This document shows, piece by piece, positions 35,969 through 48,277 of a stretch of DNA of 64,000 bases; positions within the stretch are counted from its first letter, which is position 1, and each line of letters opens with the position of its first letter. The position numbers and the translations under genes are program-made. The stretch comes from Aliiroseovarius sp. F20344 (GTDB lineage: Bacteria; Pseudomonadota; Alphaproteobacteria; Rhodobacterales; Rhodobacteraceae). A model generated the notes under the pieces. It ran no database searches. It was not told the DNA's origin and saw only the letters and a list, made by a program, of their open reading frames with translations. The DNA lies in assembly GCF_023016155.1 (NCBI RefSeq), contig NZ_JALKBG010000008.1, positions 2,501 through 66,500 on the forward strand. Direction: 5' to 3'.

Positions 35969-37351
35969 GTGTTCAATACTCTTTCCGGCCGTTTTTTGAT
36001 CCTGACGACCCTGTTCGTCATGCTGGCCGAGATTTTGATCTTCGTGCCTTCCGTCGCGCGTTTCCGCGCCGATTATCTGCAAGACCGTTTGGAACGGGCG
36101 CAGATTGCATCGCTGGCCCTGTTGGCCGATGACATGATCGCACCAGAGCTGGAAGCCGAGCTTCTGGAAAACGCCGAGGTCTATAACGTCGTGTTGCGCC
36201 GCGATGAAATGCGCGAACTGATGTTGTCGTCGACGCCACCTGGGGCTGTCACCCACGACTTTGATCTGCGTGATGCATCCGCAATGACGCTGATCCGGGA
36301 CGCCATGATGCGGCTTTTCAACACCGAGCCCGAGGTTATTCGGATCATCGGTGATCCGGTGCGCGAAGGCGGGTTGGTGATCGAAGTTACCATGTGGACC
36401 GCCAAGCTGCGCGCTGCGATGATCGATTATGGTCTGAACATCCTACTACTGTCGGCTGTCATCTCGGTTATTACGGCATTGTTGTTGTTCCTTGCGGTGC
36501 AGCGCCTGATCGTACGACCGATCAAGGGCGTCGTAGGCAATATGAAAGCTTATGCAGCCGATCCCGAGGATGCGCGCCGCATCATCTCGCCCGACACAAA
36601 TGTGACCGAGCTACGCGAGGCGGAACTGACGCTACGCTCTCTGCAAACTGATTTGACGGGCGCGTTGCGCCAAAAGGAACGGTTGGCGCAATTGGGCGGG
36701 GCCGTTGCGCGGATCAGCCATGACTTGCGCAACGTTCTGACCACGGCACAGCTTTTCGCGGACCGAATGGAAGGCAGCAACGATCCAATGGTGAAGCGGG
36801 TGGTGCCGAAGCTTTTGAACTCGATCAGTCGTGCCGTTAGCCTGTGTGAAAACACGCTTGCTTTTGGCAAGGCCGAGGAACCTGCGCCGTCGCTTGGATG
36901 GGTTAATCTGGCTGATTTGGCGGGTGACATCTTTGACAGCGAACGTCTGTCAGCAGGCGAACATGATCTGTCCTTCGCCGAAGACATTCCCATGGGGCTG
37001 ACCCTGCGTGCAGATCCCGAGCAGCTGTATCGCGTCTTATCAAACCTCGTGCGCAATGCACGCCAGGCAATTGTTGCATCCGGCAAACCCGGCGAGATCG
37101 CATTGCAAGCATTCGAGACAGATGCGGATTGGCAAATTCGCGTTGTCGATACCGGACCGGGATTGCCCAAAAATGCGCGCGAACATCTGTTCCAACCTTT
37201 TGCGGGGACCAACCGCAAGGGCGGCTCGGGCCTTGGCATGGCGATTGCCGCTGAACTGGTACGCGGCCACGGCGGCACACTGGACTTAGAGCGGACGGAT
37301 GAAGATGGAACAGCTTTTCTAGTGACCTTGCCGAAATCAATCGAAGAATAG
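35969..37351 (+). CDS. Sensor histidine kinase (orphan)
   Basis: 460 residues. Membrane helices at about 7-29 and 153-178 flank a periplasmic sensor domain of about 120 residues. A HAMP-like region follows, then HisKA with phosphoacceptor H251 in ARISHDLRN, and the ATPase domain with N363 (N-box), DTGPGL at 394-399 and GGSGLGMA at about 418-425. The start is a GTG at 35969 behind GGCGAGG. No response regulator gene is near, so the partner is elsewhere. It follows the MerA-like gene after 23 bp. Confidence 0.9.
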   Translation: MFNTLSGRFLILTTLFVMLAEILIFVPSVARFRADYLQDRLERAQIASLALLADDMIAPELEAELLENAEVYNVVLRRDEMRELMLSSTPPGAVTHDFDLRDASAMTLIRDAMMRLFNTEPEVIRIIGDPVREGGLVIEVTMWTAKLRAAMIDYGLNILLLSAVISVITALLLFLAVQRLIVRPIKGVVGNMKAYAADPEDARRIISPDTNVTELREAELTLRSLQTDLTGALRQKERLAQLGGAVARISHDLRNVLTTAQLFADRMEGSNDPMVKRVVPKLLNSISRAVSLCENTLAFGKAEEPAPSLGWVNLADLAGDIFDSERLSAGEHDLSFAEDIPMGLTLRADPEQLYRVLSNLVRNARQAIVASGKPGEIALQAFETDADWQIRVVDTGPGLPKNAREHLFQPFAGTNRKGGSGLGMAIAAELVRGHGGTLDLERTDEDGTAFLVTLPKSIEE

Positions 37352-37416: not shown

Positions 37417-37902
37417 TTAGCTTTCCGGAGGCAGGTTCACGCTGTCGATGACGTGGATAACGCCATTTGACGTTTCGATGTCTGCTGACACCACATTTGC
37501 ACCTTGGACAGTGACACCCGACATGGTGCCGATTTTGACTTCGGACCCTTGTACGGTTGCGGCCATCATGCCGTCAGACAGATCGCCTGACATTACTTTG
37601 CCCGGGACTACGTGATAGGTCAGGATCGACACGAGTTTGTCTTTGTTCTCGGGCATCAGCAGTGTTTCGACGGTACCTTCCGGAAGCGCGGCGAACGCGT
37701 CATCGGTTGGGGCGAAAACTGTGAACGGGCCCTCACCCTTCAGGGTGTCGACAAGGCCTGCAGCTTGAACCGCTGCAACAAGAGTGGTGAAGCTACCAGC
37801 AGCAACGGCTGTGTCCACAATGTCTTTCGAATGACCATCTGCGAATGCGGGGGCACTGAATGCAGCGGTGGCGGCGAGGGCAATAAATGTACGACGAAGC
37901 AT
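37417..37902 (-). CDS. Fasciclin (FAS1) domain secreted protein
   Basis: 161 residues. A signal peptide covers about 1-21 (ends FADGHS). One FAS1 domain follows, with the [15 protein letters not shown] motif and the conserved [13 protein letters not shown] and [12 protein letters not shown] blocks. FAS1 proteins are adhesion-type or stress-related extracytoplasmic proteins; the specific role is unknown. The start at 37902 ([10 protein letters not shown]) follows GGAGA; a start four codons upstream is possible but less likely. Confidence 0.9.
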
Positions 37903-37984
37903 AACGTTCTCCATGTTGTTTGATACAAGGAGTACGCGTGCCCTCTTAGGTCAGATCACTACAGCCGATGACGTTTCCGTGATC

Positions 37985-40900
37985 TTACAAATCCACAGTG
38001 ATTTCACCGCCCGGTTCCGCAGCCCGGCTTTGGCACAGGATCATCGCGCCCTCGCGCTGGGCATTGGACAGAACAAAATCCCGATGTTCCACATCGCCCG
38101 AGATCAAACCGCATTTGCACACGCCGCAAATCCCGTCAGAGCATTTCACATCCACATGCACTCCGGCAGCATTCAGCGCGTCTGCGGCCGTTTGGTCCGC
38201 CGAGACCTCGATGCGGCGCCCATCTTTCAGCTGCAATTTGAATGGGTGGTTTTCATAGTCTGGCTGTTCGGGCACCGAGAAATACTCTAGATGCCGCGCT
38301 TCTTCCGGGAAATCTTGGCGCGCCGCGGCTTCCATCACCGCGTCCATGTAGCGGTCCGCGCCACAGGCATAGACATGTGCGCCCTCCGGCGCATCCGCCA
38401 ACACCGTGTCGAAATCCGCCCGAGTGTCTTCATCCGAGATATGCAGATGCACCCGATCTGCCCAAGGCATCGCGGCCAGATCTTCAAGGAATCCGGCCTC
38501 ATCCCGACGACCGACCGAATAGTGCAGCGCGAAGTCTTTCCCCAGCGCGTGAAGCCGGTGGGCGAAGGCGATCATTGGCGTGATGCCAATGCCGCCACCC
38601 ATCAGGAAGCTTTTGGGGGCGTCTTCGACCAGTTCGAAATGGTTGATGGGTTTTGAGACGAAGACTTTGCGCCCCTCAGTGAAAATGCGGTGCAGAAGGG
38701 CCGATCCGCCGCGCCCACCTTCCTCGCGCAGGACGCCTATTTGATAGCTGTTGCGATCTGACGGATCGCCAGACAGCGAATACTGACGCAGGAAATCAGG
38801 GGACACCAGCACATCAAGATGCGCCCCAGCGGTCCAAGCGGGCAAACGCGATCCATCCTGCGCGGAGAGTTCGTATTTGGCGATGCCCGGTGTCATTTGT
38901 TCGACCTTGGACACTGCCAGTTGCAAGACCGGGCTGTCTTCCGGCACCGTATAGCGATGTACCATCGACAGGTCGCCGCGTGCCTTGCGGTCGCGATATT
39001 CGCCCGCCGTGATCATCGCGTCATAGGCCGTTATCCCGGCCTCGCGATCCATAGGGAAGGGATAGGGATAGGGCGGCGGCGCAAGATCAGCTGGATATGC
39101 CGCAAGGGTCTGGCTTTCCGGATCAAGTTTGATCTCGCGTTGAAGGTCGCGGCGGTTCACCGGGTCATCTGTGGGGTGATAACCGCCGTCTTCGCCAAGC
39201 TTCAGATCCCACCACCATTTTTTGACATCATTCAATCCGCCATTGCCGACGGCGTCATCAAGTTTCGCCAGTACCGGTGCAGCCCCCGGAATGGTCGATG
39301 CTGCCCATCTCATGGGCGCCTGCGCAAAAAGCCCCTCAAGATTCCAGGGGCACGTCTTCATACAGCGACCACACATCGCGCCACCGGGTTGAGTCACACG
39401 GTAGGTGGTGCATTTTTGGCTGTCAGATTTCCAGATCTCATAGCCGTTGAACATCTTCTTTGGCCCGGCAGTGATTGCACCGGACGGGCATTCGCGCGCG
39501 CATTTGTTACACGCTTCGCAGAACCGCTGCAGACCGAAATCAATTGGCTTGTCATGCGATAGGGGCATGTCGGTTGTTACTACACCTGACTTAAGGCGTG
39601 GCCCCAGATAGGGGTGCAGGATCACGTCTCCGATCCGCGAAATCTCACCCAAGCCAGCCAGTAGAAGCAGTGGAGGCTGCAGCACCGTGCCATCCATCAC
39701 CGTATGGGCCTTGGCCGAGTATCCAAGATTGCGGATTTGTTGTGCGATGACGCCCCCGATCAGCGAGAACCTTAAATAAGCGCGCATGGATTGGCTGACG
39801 GCGATCCAATCATCGCCTGACGCGCCCTCCATAGTTTCGAACCCCTGATCGACGATCATGGAAATGGCCTGATCATGTGGCGGAGTGATTTCTTCCCCCG
39901 CCGCATCATGGCTGTACCATGCCCAATCGGGACAACGGCTGGTGCCCGCGGCGTCAATGCCCAGAAAGTAACTGGCGGCCCGGATTGCGGCAGCGTTCTG
40001 CTTGGCATCCGCAGGGCTTATACCGTTGGCAACGGGTCCATCCTGTAGCAACGTGAAAACACCAAGCGCGCGCCGTTGCGCATAGCTGGGTGCAGCCTTG
40101 CGCACATACATCCCCCCGGACGAGCCTTCGTGCAGGTTCTTCCCCATGTCCCCAAACTGTGCACGTGCGAACATGTCCGAGCGTTTCGGGACGCGTGCGA
40201 CGTTTTCTTCGTCGATGTAAGATGTGGGGGTGTCGACGCGCTTCAGACGCTCAAAAGGAAGCGGACCCATTGTGTAGTCGCGTTTCGTATACGGATCTTG
40301 GTTTAGGCCTGACTTGGCGCTGTCCTTGCCCAACCACCACCGCAACCCGGTTAGATTTGGTTGGTCAGGTTCTGGGGCAAGGGGACGATCTGGTGTCATC
40401 TCAAGATTGGTGGTGACGACTGCCAAACCAAAACCTTCACCAAGCCAGGGCGCACGCGCACCGTTTGGGGTTGCCCATGTCAGCCCAGCTTGGACCGAAA
40501 GACGCGAAAGCCAGACGTCGCTCGCAGCCCCAGTGTGCGCTTTGGCATCATGGCCTAAAAGACGCAAGTAGTTCGCAATGACGATGGCAGTTTCGGCGGA
40601 CAGCAAACAGGCCCGTTGAGCCTGCGCATCCATGATCCAGCTTGCGCCGGGTTCGTCCTGTCTTGGGGCGCGGTGATGTTCGTAAAGGAAGACAATCGCG
40701 TGGGTGTGATCCGTGATCGCACGGTTCTTTGTTGCAAGGCTTTCCTTAAGCTCTGCCATCAGGACATCGATACCAGCGGCCAGCGTTTTCACCTCGCGCG
40801 TTTCAAGCGCGCTCACAAGCTCTTGTATGCCGGGGTTTTCAACGGATGTCTTAAGATGGGCGGTCGCGTCGAGCCGCGTGATGCCAACCATGGACGCATC

Positions 40901-41182
40901 TGAAAAATACCCAAATGCCTTTAGGTGTCGCGCGCGTTCATCTGGATCTGTGGGGATAGTGGAGGGCGCTGGATTGATTTGACCGTCGCGAATGGCGTCC
41001 AAGGCTGCCTGATAGGGCGTCATGGCATTAACGATGCTGTCCGGCTGATCATGTCGGTGAAAGCTGATTGGCGCATCCATTGGTAACTGGTCGACAGCGG
41101 TGGGTTGATCCACGCGTCGGAGCCGTTCAAGCGGATAGGGGCCCAAATCCACAGGCCGATTGCGGGTCGAAAACAAGCGCAT
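37985..41182 (-). CDS. Reductive dehalogenase-like protein fused to flavin/2Fe-2S reductase
   Basis: 1065 residues, cytoplasmic (no Tat signal). The N-terminal ~700 residues resemble the catabolic, self-sufficient reductive dehalogenases such as BhbA of Comamonas and NpRdhA of Nitratireductor. Two 4Fe-4S motifs are present: C555-x2-C558-x2-C561-x3-C565 and C591-x12-C604-x2-C607-x3-C611. The C-terminal ~330 residues form a phthalate-dioxygenase-reductase-like unit with the flavin motif RQYSLSG (799-805), the nucleotide motif GGGIGITPM (862-870) and a plant-type 2Fe-2S centre (C1014, C1019, C1022, C1050). Thus NAD(P)H, flavin, 2Fe-2S, 4Fe-4S and cobalamin could be on one chain. Residues 14-268 look like an internal repeat of 306-547. 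Halogenated substrate use is inferred only; neighbours point to methylated compounds. Confidence 0.85.
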   Translation of the reverse strand: MRLFSTRNRPVDLGPYPLERLRRVDQPTAVDQLPMDAPISFHRHDQPDSIVNAMTPYQAALDAIRDGQINPAPSTIPTDPDERARHLKAFGYFSDASMVGITRLDATAHLKTSVENPGIQELVSALETREVKTLAAGIDVLMAELKESLATKNRAITDHTHAIVFLYEHHRAPRQDEPGASWIMDAQAQRACLLSAETAIVIANYLRLLGHDAKAHTGAASDVWLSRLSVQAGLTWATPNGARAPWLGEGFGLAVVTTNLEMTPDRPLAPEPDQPNLTGLRWWLGKDSAKSGLNQDPYTKRDYTMGPLPFERLKRVDTPTSYIDEENVARVPKRSDMFARAQFGDMGKNLHEGSSGGMYVRKAAPSYAQRRALGVFTLLQDGPVANGISPADAKQNAAAIRAASYFLGIDAAGTSRCPDWAWYSHDAAGEEITPPHDQAISMIVDQGFETMEGASGDDWIAVSQSMRAYLRFSLIGGVIAQQIRNLGYSAKAHTVMDGTVLQPPLLLLAGLGEISRIGDVILHPYLGPRLKSGVVTTDMPLSHDKPIDFGLQRFCEACNKCARECPSGAITAGPKKMFNGYEIWKSDSQKCTTYRVTQPGGAMCGRCMKTCPWNLEGLFAQAPMRWAASTIPGAAPVLAKLDDAVGNGGLNDVKKWWWDLKLGEDGGYHPTDDPVNRRDLQREIKLDPESQTLAAYPADLAPPPYPYPFPMDREAGITAYDAMITAGEYRDRKARGDLSMVHRYTVPEDSPVLQLAVSKVEQMTPGIAKYELSAQDGSRLPAWTAGAHLDVLVSPDFLRQYSLSGDPSDRNSYQIGVLREEGGRGGSALLHRIFTEGRKVFVSKPINHFELVEDAPKSFLMGGGIGITPMIAFAHRLHALGKDFALHYSVGRRDEAGFLEDLAAMPWADRVHLHISDEDTRADFDTVLADAPEGAHVYACGADRYMDAVMEAAARQDFPEEARHLEYFSVPEQPDYENHPFKLQLKDGRRIEVSADQTAADALNAAGVHVDVKCSDGICGVCKCGLISGDVEHRDFVLSNAQREGAMILCQSRAAEPGGEITVDL

Positions 41183-41277
41183 CTTTGTCTTTCAGCTTGG
41201 CGAGTTATCGGCGTAACAGCGCGCTCATGCGGCTTTTCCGACCCTCCCACCATGGTCGAATACTTATGACTGTTAAA

Positions 41278-41295
41278 TGATCATATTCGTGATCA
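41278..41295 (-). promoter_or_regulatory. TGATCA repeat upstream of dehalogenase-like gene
   Basis: TGATCA occurs at 41278-41283 and 41290-41295 with a 6-bp centre, so the 18-bp element is symmetrical at its ends. It lies about 96 bp upstream of the dehalogenase-like start and 22 bp after the TetR gene stop. It could be an operator for a regulator other than TetR. No standard -10/-35 pair is evident beside it. Confidence 0.35.
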
Positions 41296-41316
41296 CAGTG
41301 CCAGCTTAAATTGGAT

Positions 41317-41934
41317 TCAATATCCATTCCGTGCGCGGAATCGGCTAATCTCGTGCTTTGTGGGGGTTTTTCCCGTGAAAAGCTCAACGTACAGAGGGAC
41401 GCGATTCACACGGGCGGCATGATCTTCTTTGATCTCCATGGCGATATAGCCAACCTGCGTGAACAGAATGGTCATCGTCCTGATTTCGGCGTCTGTTGGG
41501 GGATAGCCGAACCGCTCGAACATTCCTTGAATTGCGGTTTTGCGCTTGGCATCTGCCGCATCGACCCGCGCTTTCAGCTTCCGATCATGATCGGCCCAAT
41601 TTCGAATGGCACGGTCCAGTTGGGCATCAAACAGCTTGGATTGGAACCAGCAATCCTGAAGGTTGAACATCGCCTCGCAAATCGTCTCGGCATATAGGTC
41701 ACATTGGGCAACCAGATTGCCGCTGTTTTTGCGTTCCCACCGTTCAATCATCGCGTCCAGCAGAGCATCGCGATCGCGGAAATGATGGTAGAAACCGGTA
41801 CGTGTCAGACCCAGACGCTCAGCCAAAGGCATGATCTTCACACCGTCAGCGCCGGTTTTAATCAACAGCTCTATTGCGGCGTCTAGCCAAAGTTTTTTGG
41901 TCGCGCGTGGGCGGTTTTGTCGTTTTTGGGTCAT
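41317..41934 (-). CDS. TetR-family transcriptional regulator
   Basis: 205 residues. N-terminal HTH of the TetR type (PLAERLGLTRTGFYHHFRDRDALLDAM, about 37-62) and a helical ligand-binding region. It starts at 41934 (MTQKRQNRPRATKK); the longer reading from 42069 enters the divergent mttB-like gene and its operators. It is upstream of and on the same strand as the dehalogenase-like gene and divergent from the mttB-like gene, so it probably controls both. Two palindromes in the divergent gap are likely its operators. The effector is unknown. Confidence 0.9.
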   Translation of the reverse strand: MTQKRQNRPRATKKLWLDAAIELLIKTGADGVKIMPLAERLGLTRTGFYHHFRDRDALLDAMIERWERKNSGNLVAQCDLYAETICEAMFNLQDCWFQSKLFDAQLDRAIRNWADHDRKLKARVDAADAKRKTAIQGMFERFGYPPTDAEIRTMTILFTQVGYIAMEIKEDHAARVNRVPLYVELFTGKTPTKHEISRFRARNGY

Positions 41935-41953
41935 GCGGGGCACTCTAGAGAAC

Positions 41954-41969
41954 TTGACACATGTGTCAA
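41954..41969. promoter_or_regulatory. TetR operator 1
   Basis: TTGACACATGTGTCAA, a perfect 16-bp palindrome in the 83-bp divergent gap between the TetR gene and the mttB-like gene. Each half contains a TTGACA -35-like hexamer, so binding would block both directions. Confidence 0.75.
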
Positions 41970-41974
41970 ACCTC

Positions 41975-41990
41975 CTGACGCTAGTGTCAA
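41975..41990. promoter_or_regulatory. TetR operator 2
   Basis: CTGACGCTAGTGTCAA matches operator 1 at 12 of 16 positions. TGACGCTAGTGTCA within it is an almost perfect palindrome (one mismatched pair). Its centre lies 21 bp from the centre of operator 1, two helical turns, which suggests two dimers bound on the same DNA face. Confidence 0.65.
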
Positions 41991-42017
41991 TGGCGACTCG
42001 CAATGGAGGAGAATGCG

Positions 42018-43577
42018 ATGAGCGAAACTGCGGTGAAGCGGCGGCGTAGCCGAGGTGGACGTCAAGCAAGGGACGGCTCGCCCGGACAGAATCCCCATTT
42101 GGAACGCCCCTATATCAAACGAAACATCCCCACCTATGACCTTCTGGGCGATGAAGCGTTAGAACAGATCGAGGCGACAGCCGATCGCATCATGGCTGAG
42201 ATTGGCATCGAATTTCGAGATGACCCTGAAACGGTTGAGATGTTTCGAATGGCAGGCGGTGAAGTCACCCAGCTCGATCCCACACGATGGAACATCAAAT
42301 TCGCACCGGGCATGATCCGCGAGATATTGAAGACTGCTCCGGCAGTGTTCACCCAACACGCCCGCAACCTGGCCAACAACGTCGAGATTGGCGGCGATAA
42401 CGTGGTTTTTGCGCCTTCTTACGGCAGCCCGTTTGTCATGGATCTGGACAAGGGGCGGCGCTATGGCACGCTTGAGGATTTCCAGAACTTCGTAAAGCTG
42501 GGACAGATGAGCCCATGGCTGCATCACTCGGGCGGAACGGTTTGCGAGCCCACAGATATCCCGGTGAACAAACGCCATCTGGATATGGTCTATGCCCACA
42601 TGCGCTATTCTGATCGCGCCTTCCTTGGGTCCGTTACAGCCCCCGAACGTGCGGCCGATAGCGTCGAGATGTGCCGCATCTTGTTTGGCACTGATTTTGT
42701 CGATCAGAACTGCGTGATTATGGGCAATTTCAACACCACCAGCCCGTTGGTAATTGATGGGATCACGTCAAAAGGCATTCGCGAATATGCGAAGGCAGGG
42801 CAGGGGTCCATTCACCTTCCTTTCTTGCTGGGTGGGGCCGTGTCACCGCTGACCCTTGCAGGATCAGCCGCGCAATGTTTGGCCGAAAGCATGGTGTCTT
42901 GCGCAATTACGCAATTGGAACGCCCGGGATCTCCTGCTGTTCTGGCGAGCTTCATCAGCTCAATGTCGCTGAGATCTGGATCGCCAACATTTGGGACGGC
43001 GGAACCGGCGCTGGGCAGTCTTGTGTTTGGGCAGCTGGCACGTCGCCTGAATATGCCGCTGCGCTGTGCGGGCAACTTCTCGACCTCTAAACTGCCGGAT
43101 GCGCAAGCCATGCAGCAAAGCATGATGTCGATGATGTCAGCGGTGCAATGTGGGGCAAACTATTTGCTACATTCTGCAGGCTTCCTCGATGGGCTGTTGT
43201 CGATGTCTTACGAGAAGTTCATGCTTGATCTGGACCTCTGCGGTGCGTTGCATGCGTATTACGATGGGGTGCAGGTGAACGAGGATACTTTGGGCTTCGA
43301 TGCCTTGGCCGAAAAAGGACCGGGGGAGCACCTGTTTTCGACCGCACATACGATGCGCCACTATAAGACCGCCTATTACGACAGTGCGCTGGACGACAAC
43401 CAACCGTGGGAAACATGGGACGAGCAGGGCGAGGTCGATATGGCCACCCGCGCTAACCTGCGCTGGAAGGCACAACTGGCGGCTTATGAAGCGCCGGGCA
43501 TGGATCCGGTGAAGGATGCAGAACTGAAAGACTTCGTGGCGCGAAAGAAAGCCTCGATGGAAGACGCCTGGTACTGA
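42018..43577 (+). CDS. MttB-family (non-pyrrolysine) methyltransferase-like protein
   Basis: 519 residues in the trimethylamine methyltransferase (MttB) superfamily, a TIM-barrel enzyme that moves a methyl group from a quaternary or tertiary amine to a corrinoid protein. The reading frame has no internal amber codon, so it is a non-pyrrolysine member. Members of this group are known or proposed to act on glycine betaine and similar compounds. Supporting features are LERPYIKRNIPTYDLL near the start, the FAPSYGSPFV and PLVIDGITSKGIREYA blocks. The start at 42018 follows GGAGGAG; an ATG at 42003 precedes this site. No corrinoid-protein gene (MtbC type) is adjacent. Confidence 0.88.
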   Translation: MSETAVKRRRSRGGRQARDGSPGQNPHLERPYIKRNIPTYDLLGDEALEQIEATADRIMAEIGIEFRDDPETVEMFRMAGGEVTQLDPTRWNIKFAPGMIREILKTAPAVFTQHARNLANNVEIGGDNVVFAPSYGSPFVMDLDKGRRYGTLEDFQNFVKLGQMSPWLHHSGGTVCEPTDIPVNKRHLDMVYAHMRYSDRAFLGSVTAPERAADSVEMCRILFGTDFVDQNCVIMGNFNTTSPLVIDGITSKGIREYAKAGQGSIHLPFLLGGAVSPLTLAGSAAQCLAESMVSCAITQLERPGSPAVLASFISSMSLRSGSPTFGTAEPALGSLVFGQLARRLNMPLRCAGNFSTSKLPDAQAMQQSMMSMMSAVQCGANYLLHSAGFLDGLLSMSYEKFMLDLDLCGALHAYYDGVQVNEDTLGFDALAEKGPGEHLFSTAHTMRHYKTAYYDSALDDNQPWETWDEQGEVDMATRANLRWKAQLAAYEAPGMDPVKDAELKDFVARKKASMEDAWY

Positions 43578-43585
43578 CGGAGAAG

Positions 43586-45631
43586 ATGATGTCGAACGAT
43601 CCCCTTTTGCAGCCCTACCAGCTGGGACACCTGACTTTAAGAAACCGGATCATGACCACCAGTCACGAGCCCGCGTATCCTGAAGATGGCATGCCGAAAG
43701 AGCGCTATGCGGCCTACCATGCCGAACGGGCCAAGGCAGGCGTCGCGATGGCAATGACGGCCGGATCGGCGGCTGTGTCGAAAAACAGCCCGCCCGTCTT
43801 CAACAACATCCTCGCCTATAAGGACGAGGTGGTGCCGTGGATCAAGAACCTGACCGATGCAGTGCATGAACATGGTGCGGCCTGCATGATCCAGTTAACC
43901 CATCTGGGGCGGCGCACTGGATGGAACAAAGGCGATTGGCTGCCACCGGTCTGTTCGACACCGCATCGCGAACCAGCCCACCGGGCGTTCCCGAAATTGG
44001 CCGAGGACTGGGATATTTCGCGGATCATCTCGGATTTTGCGGACGCGGCCGAGCGGATGCAAGCAGGCGGAATGGATGGGGTCGAGATTATGACCCATGG
44101 GCACTTGCTGGATCAGTTCATTTCCCCGCTGACCAACCATCTTGAGGGTCCCTATGGCGGAGATTTGGCTGCGCGGATGAAGCTGACGCTGGAAATCATA
44201 GATGCCGTACGCAAGCGTGTGGGTGACGAGTTTGTCCTTGGAGTGCGTTTCGCCCCGGACGAGGTGGAAGATGGGGGTATCGACCCGGATATGGGTATGG
44301 AGATCGCCAAAATGCTGCGCGATTGTGGGCAGGTCCAGTATCTAAACATCAACCGCGGGCGCATTCACACGGATCCAGCTTTGACGGATATGATCCCCAT
44401 TCAGGGCGCGCCATCTTCACCGCATCTGGATTTCGCAGGGCGTGTGCGGGCTGAGGTTGGAATGCCGACTTTCCACGCCGCCCGCATCCCCGATGTCGCA
44501 ACCGCGCGCCACGCCATTGCCTCGGGTCAATTGGATATGGTCGGGATGACCCGCGCCCATATGGCGGACCCGCATATCGTGCAAAAGATCGTGGAGGGGC
44601 GCGAAGAGGATATTCGCCCCTGCGTGGGCGCAACCTACTGTCTGGATCGCATCTATCAGGCAGGTGATGCGCTATGCATGCACAATGCCGCCACCGGTCG
44701 CGAGCTGACCATGCCGCATGTGGCTGAACCAGCGGGCGAGAAACGAAAGGTGGTTGTTGTGGGCGCTGGCCCTGCAGGGCTGGAAGCAGCGCGTGTCGCG
44801 GCCGAGCGTGGGCATGATGTGACCGTGTTCGAAGCGCAACCTGATCCGGGCGGGCAGCTGCGGTTAGCAGCACAAACCCCACGTCGTCGCGAGATGATTG
44901 GCATCGTTGACTGGCGTATGTCCCAATGCGCCGCCCGCGATGTGACCTTCCATTTCAACACATGGGCTGAAGCCTCAGACGTGACTGCGCTGAATCCAGA
45001 CGTGGTGATTGTTGCGACAGGCGGTCTGCCCAATCTGACGCTTTTCGAAACCAAAACCGATCAGGATTTGGCGATCAGCGCGTGGGATGTGATCGCGGGG
45101 GACGTGAAATGCGCAGGCGATGTGCTGATCTATGACGAAAGCGGTGATCACCCGGCAATGCAAGCCGCCGAAATCGCGGCCGAAGCTGGTGCAAATGTTG
45201 AAGTGATGACCCCTGACCGCACTTTCGCCCCTGACATCATGGCGATGAACCTTGTGCCTTACATGCGGTCACTACAGCCCAAAGGGGTGAAGTTCACCGT
45301 TACCGAACGCCTTAAGAGTGTCGCGCGTGATGGCAATCGCTTGAAGGTTACCCTTGGCACCGATTACTCTGATTTCACCCGCGAGGCGACATACGATCAA
45401 GTGGTGGTGAACTATGGCACACTGCCGATGGATGATCTGTATTTTGAGCTGAAAGAGCTATCGTCAAACCGCGGTGAGGTCGATCAAGAGGCCCTGATCA
45501 CGGGCAAGCCGCAGACGATCAACACAAATGCGGATGGAAATTTTCAGCTGTTCCGGATTGGGGATGCCGTGAACGCACGCAATACGCATGCGGCAATCTA
45601 TGACGCGTTAAGGCTGGTGAAAGACCTGTAA
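43586..45631 (+). CDS. DgcA/trimethylamine-dehydrogenase-like NADH:flavin oxidoreductase
   Basis: 681 residues with three parts: an FMN-binding old-yellow-enzyme barrel (1-345), a Fe-S segment, and FAD/NAD-binding C-terminal domains (VVVVGAGPAGLEAARVAAERG at about 390). The family includes trimethylamine dehydrogenase and the dimethylglycine or N-methylproline demethylases (DgcA, Stc2 type). The cluster Cys are C346, C352 and C364; the second Cys of trimethylamine dehydrogenase (C348 there) is replaced by Ala349 (CVGATYC). It begins 9 bp after the MttB-like gene and is probably co-transcribed with it. The substrate is not shown by the sequence. Confidence 0.88.
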   Translation: MMSNDPLLQPYQLGHLTLRNRIMTTSHEPAYPEDGMPKERYAAYHAERAKAGVAMAMTAGSAAVSKNSPPVFNNILAYKDEVVPWIKNLTDAVHEHGAACMIQLTHLGRRTGWNKGDWLPPVCSTPHREPAHRAFPKLAEDWDISRIISDFADAAERMQAGGMDGVEIMTHGHLLDQFISPLTNHLEGPYGGDLAARMKLTLEIIDAVRKRVGDEFVLGVRFAPDEVEDGGIDPDMGMEIAKMLRDCGQVQYLNINRGRIHTDPALTDMIPIQGAPSSPHLDFAGRVRAEVGMPTFHAARIPDVATARHAIASGQLDMVGMTRAHMADPHIVQKIVEGREEDIRPCVGATYCLDRIYQAGDALCMHNAATGRELTMPHVAEPAGEKRKVVVVGAGPAGLEAARVAAERGHDVTVFEAQPDPGGQLRLAAQTPRRREMIGIVDWRMSQCAARDVTFHFNTWAEASDVTALNPDVVIVATGGLPNLTLFETKTDQDLAISAWDVIAGDVKCAGDVLIYDESGDHPAMQAAEIAAEAGANVEVMTPDRTFAPDIMAMNLVPYMRSLQPKGVKFTVTERLKSVARDGNRLKVTLGTDYSDFTREATYDQVVVNYGTLPMDDLYFELKELSSNRGEVDQEALITGKPQTINTNADGNFQLFRIGDAVNARNTHAAIYDALRLVKDL

Positions 45632-45634
45632 AAC

Positions 45635-45961
45635 TTACCCCTGCTGCGTGCGTTCGATATACGCGCGCAGCTCTTCCGCTTCGTGGCGGGCATCGCGCAA
45701 TCCATCCATTGCAGCGCGCAGTTCCGCCTCGGTCTGGTGCAGCTGGTTCGACATCTCGGCTTCGCGCGATTGCAGATAGGTGATGGCTTCGTCACGTGTC
45801 TCTTCCGCGTCGTGCAGCGCTTGCGCCATCTTGTCCAGCTCGCTCATTTCGCTGCCTTGCACCTGAACGAAGCGGTGGATCAGCCAATGGGCGAACCAGC
45901 CCAGAACAAAGGCCACAAAAAGAATGATCGCGGTGACGATGATAAACTCGGTTCTGTTCAT
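45635..45961 (-). CDS. Membrane-anchored coiled-coil protein
   Basis: 108 residues. One N-terminal membrane helix (about 7-29), then a predicted long coiled coil (SELDKMAQALHDAEETRDEAI...). I do not recognise the family. It is 21 bp downstream of the OmpA-like gene on the same strand and may work with it at the envelope. It converges with the flavoprotein gene 3 bp away. Confidence 0.75.
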   Translation of the reverse strand: MNRTEFIIVTAIILFVAFVLGWFAHWLIHRFVQVQGSEMSELDKMAQALHDAEETRDEAITYLQSREAEMSNQLHQTEAELRAAMDGLRDARHEAEELRAYIERTQQG

Positions 45962-45982
45962 CGGGCTGTCCTTTGGTGTCTA

Positions 45983-48277
45983 TCAGCGTTCCGGGCGCGG
46001 AGCCGGACGGGTGTCGTTTGCGTCAGGGGCGAAGACTTCGGGCCCACTATAGGGCGGTTCCGAGGGTTCATCACCAGATTCGGTGTCGGGCGTGCTGGCG
46101 GCAGAGCCTTGGCTGGCTTCCGGACTTGTTGCGTTTGGCGCAGCGATGTCGGTCGTGCTGGGCTCTTCCACTGGGCCTGCAGGGTCTGATTCTGGGGCGG
46201 GTTCAGCATCAGCTACTGGGGCCGTTTCCGGGGCGCTTTCGGTATCTTCTACCGAATTGGCTTCGGGTTCGGATGCTGTGGTCTCGGCATCTGGTTCGCT
46301 AACGGTTTCTTCCGTTTCAGATGCAGGATCGACCGGCGGTTCATCGGCGTTCGTTACCTCAGCCTCGGGTGTCGCTTCGGCATCTGTTGTAGTAGAGCTT
46401 TCGCCTTCAGCCGTTTCACCGGAAGCCTCGCCTGTTTCCTCACCACTTTCCTGCGTCGCGCCTTCCAGAAGGCGGAACTCAATTCGGCGATTGGCTTCAC
46501 GGCCATCCTCGGTCCCGTTATCTGCGATCGGGTTCTCTTCGCCATAGCCAACGGCGGACAGATTCGAGGTAAGGATGCGGCGCGACAGAAGGGCGCTTAG
46601 AACCGCCTGTGCGCGGTTTTGCGACAACGCCAGGTTCATTTCTTCACGACCCTGGCTGTCAGTATATCCAGAGATTTCCATCCGCACGTCCGAACATTGG
46701 CGCATGATCTCGGCGATCTTGTCGACCGTATCGGCGGCAGAGGCTTCAATATTGGCCGAGCCGGGTGCAAAGGTGATTTTCTTTGCTGCCAGAACCGCGT
46801 TGATGTCAGCTGCACATTGTTCCGGGCTAGGCAGGTTAAGGGTCGGGTTCAGGCTTTCCTCATAGGTGACGTTGACCTGAAAGTTCTCGGAAGCCCCTAG
46901 TTTCTCGCCCAAAAGGCGCGAGATCTCGGCGCTGGCTTCTGGATCGCCGGTGCGTCCGCGAATGTCCACGATGTCGGGCTGCACGACGACCACGCCGTTG
47001 GCGACCAGAGACAGTGCTTCCAGACCTGCCAGAACGCGTGTAGGCCAGTTGCCTGGCAGTTCGGGATCAAGCCGCGTTGCCGGGTAGACCGAGCGTGATC
47101 CAAACTTCGCCCGTGCAAAGCTTTCTGCCGCGCTACGCAAAGCTTCATCGGACAATCTTCCGCGCAATTGGACTTGCCCTTCAGGACTTAGCGTGGCGAC
47201 AAATTCGGGAACTGCGTCGCCTTCGCCGGTACCATCGATTTTTACTGGTTCGGGCAATACCGAATGCAGCGAATACAGATCAGGAAGGTTGCTTTCCAGC
47301 TCGCCGACGACGCGGTCAAACGTTGCTTGTGGGGTCGTGTCTTGTGCAACCAGCGTTACGTCTGCGTCCGAAAAAGTTACCGACCCGCCGCCAAGGGCGG
47401 CAACGGCATTGATGCCCATTTCGGCGGCTTCGGCCCAATCTGGCGAAGGGACACCCAAGCCGATAATGCAATTGGCAACCCCGTCTAATCCCGCCTCGGT
47501 TGCGGCCGAGATGATCTTGGCGCGCCCCACAGCATCATGCGCCGAACAGGCATCGAAGCGAGCCCCTTTGTCGTCGATCAGGAACCGCAGCGTGAAGGGG
47601 GTGATCACGGGGCGCGGCGCTGAGATGTCGATGGACAGAAGAATAGAACGCGGGGCTTTGCGTTTCAGGTTGCGTGCCCAGTCTTGCTGTTGTTCCGCAC
47701 TGTCGGCCACAGCAGTGATCGAAACCTTGTCTGCATCCATTGAAATTTTCGATCGTGGCAACTGGGATAGAGCGTAGAGCACATAGTCCAGCGTTGCGTC
47801 CCAATTGGCAGGGACCGCGTAATCGGCAACTTCCAGCAGGTCCGTGACGTCCGTTTCCCCTGCGATGTCACCAACTTCTTCAACCAGCTCGTCGCGGTCG
47901 GTTTTTGCAGGGATCAAGCCGATCATCGAGATACCGGCATCGTTGCGCAGAACCTCGATCGAGAAACGTGGAGGCTGAACTACTTCTGCTTCCGGGATTG
48001 CCATGTTGTCGATGACACGCGCCGCGTCAACTTCGCCGCCCGCGACGGACAAGGCACGGAATCGCATGGCTTCGCTTGGGGCAACACCAGACAAAACAAC
48101 TTGCAACCCATCAGACTGGACCTGTGCCCATTCATGTCCGCGCAAAGTCAAAGCATCCCGCACGGCATCTTCCGAGCTTTTTTCGATCACATTGACCGAA
48201 ATAATGGCCGCGAACAGGGCCAGAAAAGCGCCGACCACAAGCGAGGCCGGGACCAGAAGAATTTGCGATGGGCGCAT
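45983..48277 (-). CDS. OmpA-family protein with BON-like repeats and acidic tail
   Basis: 764 residues. A hydrophobic anchor or uncleaved signal lies at about 7-30. The following ~460 residues contain repeated BON-like segments (for example GLIPAKTDRDELVEEVGDIAG and GRLSDEALRSAAESFARA). An OmpA-type peptidoglycan-binding domain covers about 497-608 (ITFAPGSANIEASAADTV, ISGYTDSQGREEMNLALSQNRA). Residues 610-764 form a low-complexity Glu/Pro/Ala/Thr tail. It is probably an inner-membrane-anchored periplasmic protein that reaches the cell wall. Function unknown. Confidence 0.85.
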   Translation of the reverse strand: MRPSQILLVPASLVVGAFLALFAAIISVNVIEKSSEDAVRDALTLRGHEWAQVQSDGLQVVLSGVAPSEAMRFRALSVAGGEVDAARVIDNMAIPEAEVVQPPRFSIEVLRNDAGISMIGLIPAKTDRDELVEEVGDIAGETDVTDLLEVADYAVPANWDATLDYVLYALSQLPRSKISMDADKVSITAVADSAEQQQDWARNLKRKAPRSILLSIDISAPRPVITPFTLRFLIDDKGARFDACSAHDAVGRAKIISAATEAGLDGVANCIIGLGVPSPDWAEAAEMGINAVAALGGGSVTFSDADVTLVAQDTTPQATFDRVVGELESNLPDLYSLHSVLPEPVKIDGTGEGDAVPEFVATLSPEGQVQLRGRLSDEALRSAAESFARAKFGSRSVYPATRLDPELPGNWPTRVLAGLEALSLVANGVVVVQPDIVDIRGRTGDPEASAEISRLLGEKLGASENFQVNVTYEESLNPTLNLPSPEQCAADINAVLAAKKITFAPGSANIEASAADTVDKIAEIMRQCSDVRMEISGYTDSQGREEMNLALSQNRAQAVLSALLSRRILTSNLSAVGYGEENPIADNGTEDGREANRRIEFRLLEGATQESGEETGEASGETAEGESSTTTDAEATPEAEVTNADEPPVDPASETEETVSEPDAETTASEPEANSVEDTESAPETAPVADAEPAPESDPAGPVEEPSTTDIAAPNATSPEASQGSAASTPDTESGDEPSEPPYSGPEVFAPDANDTRPAPRPER

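Follow-up and report, generated by a model that had tools for sequence, protein, structure and literature searches.

Described relatives of the locus

JtRdhA of Jhaorihella thermophila, in which the cobalamin-binding domain is duplicated and a reductase is fused to a part with two 4Fe-4S motifs, debrominates phenols with NADPH; bromo- and iodophenols are converted, whereas chlorinated analogues are bound and lead only to inhibition (PMC10463259). A second marine debrominase is Ros_A3X954 of Roseobacter sp. MED193 (PMC13101508). Among enzymes acting on methylated amines, stcD on pSymB of S. meliloti encodes the N-methylproline demethylase for stachydrine use (PMC12239276), and MtpB of Eubacterium limosum is a proline betaine:corrinoid methyltransferase (PMC12478193). 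In Ruegeria pomeroyi, MtgC and MtgD are encoded apart from several pfam06253 (MtgB-type) proteins, of which SPO2108 and SPO2134 are induced on glycine betaine, and unassigned MtgB paralogues are pointed to (PMC12478193). Relatives of these systems stand side by side at positions 37985–45631 of the window, the 64,000-nucleotide stretch of Aliiroseovarius sp. F20344 DNA that was analysed, which is part of the 1.44 Mb contig C8 in a genome of 3.36 Mb. The four genes encode a fused reductive dehalogenase (RdhA), a TetR-family regulator, a methyltransferase of the MttB superfamily, and a two-domain flavoprotein of the OYE/trimethylamine dehydrogenase (TMADH) family.

From the sequence alone these genes had been read as one cobalamin/demethylation island. 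We propose, with a probability of about 0.72, that they are instead two unrelated, separately inherited catabolic modules that share one chromosomal locus in the genus, Module A being a putative bromophenol RdhA and Module B a putative proline-betaine TetR–MttB–OYE cassette. A tempting but wrong island is thus replaced by two testable statements. All four open reading frames (ORFs) were confirmed in place by the ORF list together with profile and structure-library searches, and the features on which the argument turns are the following.

37985–41182, minus strand: RdhA fusion, 1065 aa, predicted self-sufficient catabolic reductive dehalogenase; its parts are an RdhA domain whose N-terminal repeat is degenerate, a pair of [4Fe-4S] motifs, an FMN/NAD(P)H reductase and a 2Fe-2S domain
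41310–41321, minus strand: putative cis-acting element of the RdhA unit, ATTGAATCCAAT inside GGATATTGAATCCAATTT, overlapping the TetR stop codon
41317–41934, minus strand: TetR-family regulator, 205 aa counted from the ATG at 41934
41954–41969, strand not applicable: predicted operator O1, TTGACACATGTGTCAA, a perfect palindrome with 0 mismatches, overlapping a -35-like TTGACA
41975–41990, strand not applicable: predicted operator O2, CTGACGCTAGTGTCAA, 2 mismatches, 21 bp from O1
42003–43577, plus strand: MtgB-like, non-pyrrolysine methyltransferase of the MttB superfamily, probably starting at 42018
43586–45631, plus strand: two-domain OYE/TMADH-family flavoprotein, candidate StcD-like N-methylproline demethylase

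The two modules separate in the genus and in the family

The sequence-only reading had named a neighbourhood survey as the test of its island, and in that survey the four genes failed to travel together. Among the 21 genomes of the genus (window genome included), both modules occupy the locus in 13, RdhA stands there without the TetR–MttB–OYE cassette in six (G309, G310, G301, G306, G300 and G295), the cassette without RdhA in one (G302, locus L116), and one genome is undecided at a contig end (G311). Genes on separate contigs of draft genomes were scored as not adjacent. In G301, G309, G306 and G295 an MttB–OYE cassette is found on another contig, outside the clade formed by the 14 locus copies. 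Three of these foreign-clade cassettes (L117, L118 and L119, from G301, G309 and G306) lie on contigs of 177–202 kb and are apparent replacements by transfer.

The family was sampled with 295 genomes, one per genus. Outside Aliiroseovarius, 16 genomes hold both RdhA and an MttB orthologue (62% identity or more), yet in 0/16 do the two lie within 10 kb, the nearest pair being ~92 kb apart (G110). The MttB orthologue occurs in 16/111 genomes with RdhA and in 38/183 without it (odds ratio 0.64, p 0.21), and thus no co-occurrence is seen; this statistic, like those on the sulfatase below, takes no account of kinship or genome size, apart from the choline sulfatase (BetC) control given there. None of 53 RdhA neighbourhoods retrieved from other genera (from 111 genomes, picked by rank and contig position and not at random) contains the MttB orthologue or its OYE, and a second, overlapping set of 75 RdhA loci outside Aliiroseovarius gave none with the orthologue and one with a 34% relative. 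From the other side, 19 MttB-centred loci in other genera (from 54 family genomes with an orthologue, mostly top-ranked) hold an OYE of 65% identity or more in 15 cases, TetR in 14 and RdhA in 0. Co-location of the four genes therefore breaks down in the genus as well as in the family, and the single island was rejected.

The fused reductive dehalogenase

The first gene had been taken for a self-sufficient RdhA-like protein with its own flavin and 2Fe-2S reductase, and this description stands. The protein scores 208.6 bits against the NCBIfam reductive dehalogenase model TIGR02486 (cut-off 160.35) and also matches Fer2 and PDR-type models; its dehalogenase part aligns with NpRdhA of Nitratireductor pacificus (4ras, E 2.5e-159), and its C-terminal part with phthalate dioxygenase reductase (2pia, E 3.1e-51). 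With two [4Fe-4S] motifs and the fused FMN/2Fe-2S reductase it is, by sequence, a new member of the self-sufficient NpRdhA/JtRdhA class. The catalytic residues correspond to Y469, K531 and R595, and further active-site residues to S465, M466 and F338. In an alignment pooling two locus sets that share some genomes, the equivalents of NpRdhA S422, M423, Y426, K488 and R552 are kept in 157/157 loci covering them, that of F291 in 156/156, and the cluster cysteines (555, 558, 561, 565, 604, 607 and 611 together with 1014, 1019, 1022 and 1050) in all covering loci (157 or 158). The fusion is widespread, being present in 112/295 family genomes at E <= 1e-150 (window genome counted) and in 20/21 genomes of the genus.

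JtRdhA, as described, shares with the window protein the duplicated cobalamin-binding domain, the two 4Fe-4S motifs, the fused reductase and the catalytic residues; a difference is that the RdhA gene stands behind an arylsulfatase gene in species closely related to that of the window. The pBHB plasmid protein of Comamonas sp. 7D-2, which we take to be BhbA, belongs to the same enzyme class and is 49% identical to the window RdhA. The pBHB gene and that of Nitratireductor OM-1 are set among protocatechuate/4-hydroxybenzoate genes, whereas none was seen beside the window RdhA. A respiratory, exported (twin-arginine) reductive dehalogenase was considered and rejected, as the protein starts with MRLFSTRNRPVDLG, has no twin-arginine leader and aligns to NpRdhA from residue 1; reading the neighbouring ORFs, with no dedicated search, gave no rdhB-like membrane anchor gene.

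Because the active-site residues are conserved and JtRdhA of the same architecture debrominates phenols, the best reading of the protein is that of a bromophenol reductive dehalogenase. Electrons from NAD(P)H would reach base-off cobalamin by way of FMN, the 2Fe-2S cluster and the two 4Fe-4S clusters, and an ortho-bromine (or iodine) would be removed from phenolic compounds, as homology and the catalytic residues suggest. In five loci outside the genus (L076, L080, L087, L088 and L092) a divergent LysR gene lies just upstream of RdhA, followed in several of them by an SDR or FAD-oxidoreductase-like gene.

An arylsulfatase gene precedes RdhA in relatives

The gene before RdhA is a sulfatase or its remains in 10/19 genus loci (L063–L065, L067 and L069–L074; for example L065:11604-13259), with frameshifted copies in L070 and L074. 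The gap to RdhA is -1 to 2 bp in eight loci and 62 bp, by the caller's start, in L063; no linked sulfatase is present in the window, L057–L062, L066 or L068. The nearest solved relative of this sulfatase is SpAS2 of Silicibacter pomeroyi (4upl, E 6.7e-237), an arylsulfatase active on p-nitrophenyl sulfate at 2.1 x 10^5 M^-1 s^-1 (PMC12421950); neither SpAS1 nor SpAS2 showed choline-sulfatase activity (PMC5870055). The available part of PMC12421950 draws no link from SpAS2 to dehalogenation, and none of the papers listed by our literature search for a reductive dehalogenase with a sulfatase is, as far as the listing shows, about their pairing.

Outside the genus, G064 has the sulfatase directly upstream of RdhA at a distance of 170 bp, and five other genomes (G251, G137, G176, G081 and G057) have it no more than 10 kb away, so that at least 6 of the 82 genomes with both genes have them within 10 kb; 0.72 would be expected, assuming 1.45 sulfatase copies per genome and 4.1 Mb (P 1e-4). 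Among the matches listed, the sulfatase is found in 82/111 RdhA genomes versus 54/183 others (odds ratio 6.75, p 1.5e-13). Choline sulfatase, used as a lifestyle control, is also associated (93/111 versus 129/183; odds ratio 2.16, p 0.012), and part of the association is therefore background. The window genome has, among the matches listed, a 69% relative of the sulfatase on contig C3.

As an arylsulfatase directly precedes RdhA in sister species and the two co-occur family-wide, the enzyme probably serves algal bromophenols that carry sulfate in nature; lanosol-4,7-disulfate and other bromophenol sulfates occur in the red alga Vertebrata lanosa (PMC9322897). In the sister species RdhA would act as the second gene product of an arylsulfatase–RdhA unit, desulfation coming first and debromination second. 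The window itself has no linked sulfatase, and the substrate suggested for its RdhA is thus carried over from relatives. The pair is the most interesting by-product of the analysis, since it offers a natural-substrate hypothesis (sulfated bromophenols, e.g. lanosol disulfate) for a class studied mostly with pollutants.

The methyltransferase–flavoprotein cassette

The description of the MttB protein as non-pyrrolysine was borne out. It matches PF06253 (E 1.8e-208) with no in-frame amber, and scores 211.8 against the pyrrolysine MttB model TIGR02369, below the cut-off of 525. The nearest solved structures are 4yyc (E 8.4e-158) and 2qne (E 1.9e-108); the glycine betaine methyltransferase 9yce follows at E 6.6e-107 and the trimethylamine methyltransferase 7xcl only at E 1.2e-22, placing the protein nearer MtgB than pyrrolysine MttB. 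Three PF06253 proteins are encoded in the window genome in all.

The flavoprotein, previously called DgcA/TMADH-like, indeed combines PF00724 with a pyridine-nucleotide domain. It shares 69% identity, over 680 alignment columns, with the sole OYE match on S. meliloti pSymB (each of the 11 listed S. meliloti records has one OYE-family match), and a TetR gene, 49% identical to that of the window, stands divergently beside the pSymB gene. We infer that this pSymB gene is stcD, in keeping with the UniProt entry for StcD, though neither a gene name nor an annotation to that effect was found in the records searched. Two differences are that no MttB gene adjoins the pSymB OYE gene and that in S. meliloti the first demethylation of stachydrine is carried out by another enzyme, of Rieske type. 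The cluster motif departs from that of TMADH itself: the 4Fe-4S motif of TMADH has four cysteines, whereas the window OYE has C-x5-C-x11-C (CVGATYC), one cysteine fewer, as have its S. meliloti, TM1040 and Pseudosulfitobacter orthologues. Since this motif is common to the three orthologues, the Fe-S cluster may be altered in the clade.

Fuller MttB clusters contain proline genes: a proline racemase in L098 and L117 (by Pfam) and L244 (by annotation), and a ProC-like reductase in 6/24 MttB loci; a second OYE is found in 13/24. In Ruegeria TM1040 an oligopeptide-type ABC transporter adjoins TetR–OYE. By analogy with the partner OYE and with these proline genes, the MttB substrate is most likely proline betaine, and the best reading of Module B is a cobalamin-dependent demethylation of proline betaine with the corrinoid protein in trans. 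MttB would take a methyl group from a quaternary amine, most likely stachydrine (proline betaine) or a closely related compound, and pass it to an MtgC encoded elsewhere, and the OYE, if the link to StcD holds, would oxidatively demethylate the resulting N-methylproline to proline. MtpB, as described, shares the superfamily and the proposed reaction; its host E. limosum is an anaerobic acetogen, unlike the window species. The TetR–MttB–StcD-like cassette is a variant without a name in the literature examined. Its pairing of MttB with a StcD-like flavoprotein predicts cobalamin-dependent use of proline betaine in aerobic marine bacteria, and would cover one unassigned MtgB paralogue of the kind flagged in PMC12478193.

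That no corrinoid protein lies nearby holds for the window. Elsewhere in the genome, on contig C8 near 999,700 (L157:521-2262), a 277-aa B12-binding protein (PF02310 and PF02607) is encoded beside a DUF1638 gene, and this MtgC-like protein is the likely partner of all three PF06253 proteins. In R. pomeroyi, too, DUF1638 is near MtgC, as judged by locus number (PMC12478193). A corrinoid partner at the locus is unnecessary, because both genomes encode an MtgC-type protein elsewhere. The likeness to MtgBCD is at the family level, with a pfam06253 methyltransferase and a corrinoid protein next to DUF1638; the difference is that the window MttB is paired with TetR and a StcD-like OYE.

Control elements

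The second gene is a TetR regulator, as first described (TetR_N, E 7.1e-11), and the divergent control region that had been ascribed to all four genes is real between TetR and MttB, where the operator-like sites lie; RdhA has an element of its own, at 41310–41321. Of 31 TetR–MttB regions, drawn from Aliiroseovarius as well as other genera, 25 hold a TTGACA-N4-TGTCAA site with 0 mismatches; in the remaining ones the best site has 1 mismatch (four regions), 2 (one region) or 3 (one region). A site with 2 or fewer mismatches is thus present in 30/31 real regions versus 0.12 regions in shuffles, and two operator-like sites (at most 3 mismatches) are present in 26/31; L112, in which TetR and MttB are too far apart, and loci without a matched TetR were omitted from this test. 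In TM1040 the TetR–OYE gap holds a perfect site plus a second with 1 mismatch, and in S. meliloti one site with 2 mismatches; no operator site was found in the Pseudosulfitobacter TetR–OYE gap. TetR is predicted to be a repressor of itself and of MttB–OYE, binding the paired sites to repress the divergent operon. Control of RdhA by TetR through an operator of its own was ruled out, as no TTGACA-N4-TGTCAA site was found in the 134 bp TetR–RdhA gap.

The RdhA element, ATTG(A/G)ATCCAA, is found in 16/19 genus loci, with or without TetR. It is present in five TetR-less loci (L064, L067, L070, L072 and L073), carries one extra mismatch in L069, and is absent from L066, L068 and the RdhA-less L116. 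Outside the genus only 4/134 upstream regions contain it at no more than 2 mismatches (shuffle mean 0.55), and it is therefore treated as genus-specific.

Alternative explanations

Several observations weigh against two unrelated modules with the substrates proposed here. The modules are kept adjacent in 13/21 genus genomes while RdhA diverges to about 72% identity, and may thus be loosely linked; the window clade, moreover, has TetR 103–134 bp upstream of RdhA and co-directional with it, and read-through from the TetR promoter could therefore couple them. Two of the 53 RdhA loci outside the genus (L122 and L129) hold a different MttB-family gene: in G200 (L122:7554-12434) RdhA is convergent with a 53% MttB-family gene 186 bp away, and in G007 (L129) a 34% MttB lies 2.7 kb from RdhA. 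As to substrates, the sulfatase was linked to RdhA in relatives and is not so linked in the window, the pSymB OYE is not annotated as stcD, and proline racemase occurs in some clusters only, with none in the window. The adjacency, the G200 arrangement and the orientation of TetR (co-directional with RdhA, or with sulfatase–RdhA in L065, L069 and L071) would also suit one pathway, in which RdhA debrominates a brominated quaternary-ammonium substrate (e.g. a bromotyrosine-type betaine) and MttB and OYE demethylate it under one TetR. The sequence-only reading had likewise imagined a substrate both halogenated and methylated, for which support was not found here; for the genus we regard it as highly improbable, since either module is also found alone at the locus, co-location and co-occurrence outside the genus are absent, the cis elements are separate, and OYE and TetR occur elsewhere with proline genes. 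Enzymes of the RdhA and MttB types both depend on corrinoid chemistry, and this, with the adjacency in the genus, speaks for the suggestion that RdhA is a cobalamin carrier or reductase for MttB. Such a role is scarcely credible: supply by RdhA is not needed where the genome itself encodes an MtgC-like protein beside DUF1638, MtgC and MtgD of R. pomeroyi serve MtgB proteins in trans (PMC12478193), G302 keeps MttB–OYE at the locus without RdhA, and the dehalogenase catalytic residues are strictly conserved.

Within the reading of two separate modules, the substrates may still differ from those proposed. Glycine betaine/dimethylglycine as the substrate of Module B, with MttB as an MtgB and the OYE as a DgcA-like enzyme, is unlikely but deserves to be kept in mind, given the match to 9yce and the induction of the family members SPO2108 and SPO2134 on glycine betaine (PMC12478193); against it, one of the two other PF06253 proteins in the genome, of the roughly 49%-identical type that forms the bulk of the family matches, is a better glycine betaine candidate, and the identity of the OYE to the pSymB protein and the proline genes of the extended clusters point to proline betaine. 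The function of RdhA here is predicted from sequence, which leaves some room for activity on chlorinated or non-phenolic compounds, or for a redox protein without dehalogenase function. We consider this improbable, as the protein retains each of the six active-site residues described for NpRdhA/JtRdhA, and JtRdhA converts bromo- and iodophenols while merely binding the chlorinated analogues (PMC10463259). A more speculative and rather unlikely extension is that the locus serves red-algal metabolites through two B12-dependent arms under partly shared TetR control, with arylsulfatase and RdhA removing sulfate and bromine from bromophenol sulfates and MttB and the StcD-like OYE demethylating proline betaine. 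If so, aerobic marine bacteria would have a cobalamin route for proline betaine in place of the oxygenase route of rhizobia, and co-location would reflect a shared niche, possibly one signal.

Gene starts and borders of the locus

A TetR start at the TTG at 42069 would overlap MttB, and the ATG at 41934, picked by a coding-score ORF caller, is more likely. For MttB the probable start is 42018, with GGAGGA a short way upstream and relatives aligning from that point. Scans for sigma-70 promoters (1 site versus 3.9 in shuffles) and terminators (13 versus 7.8) were not used. A Fasciclin-type gene (37417–37914) directly downstream of RdhA was unmatched by tblastn in L062 and the remaining fetched genus loci; it has tblastn matches in L057–L061 and L075. 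Two further features border the locus and lie outside both modules.

35969–37351, plus strand: sensor histidine kinase gene, the genus-conserved left border
45635–48277, minus strand: a 108-aa gene and an OmpA-family gene, the right border in many genus genomes

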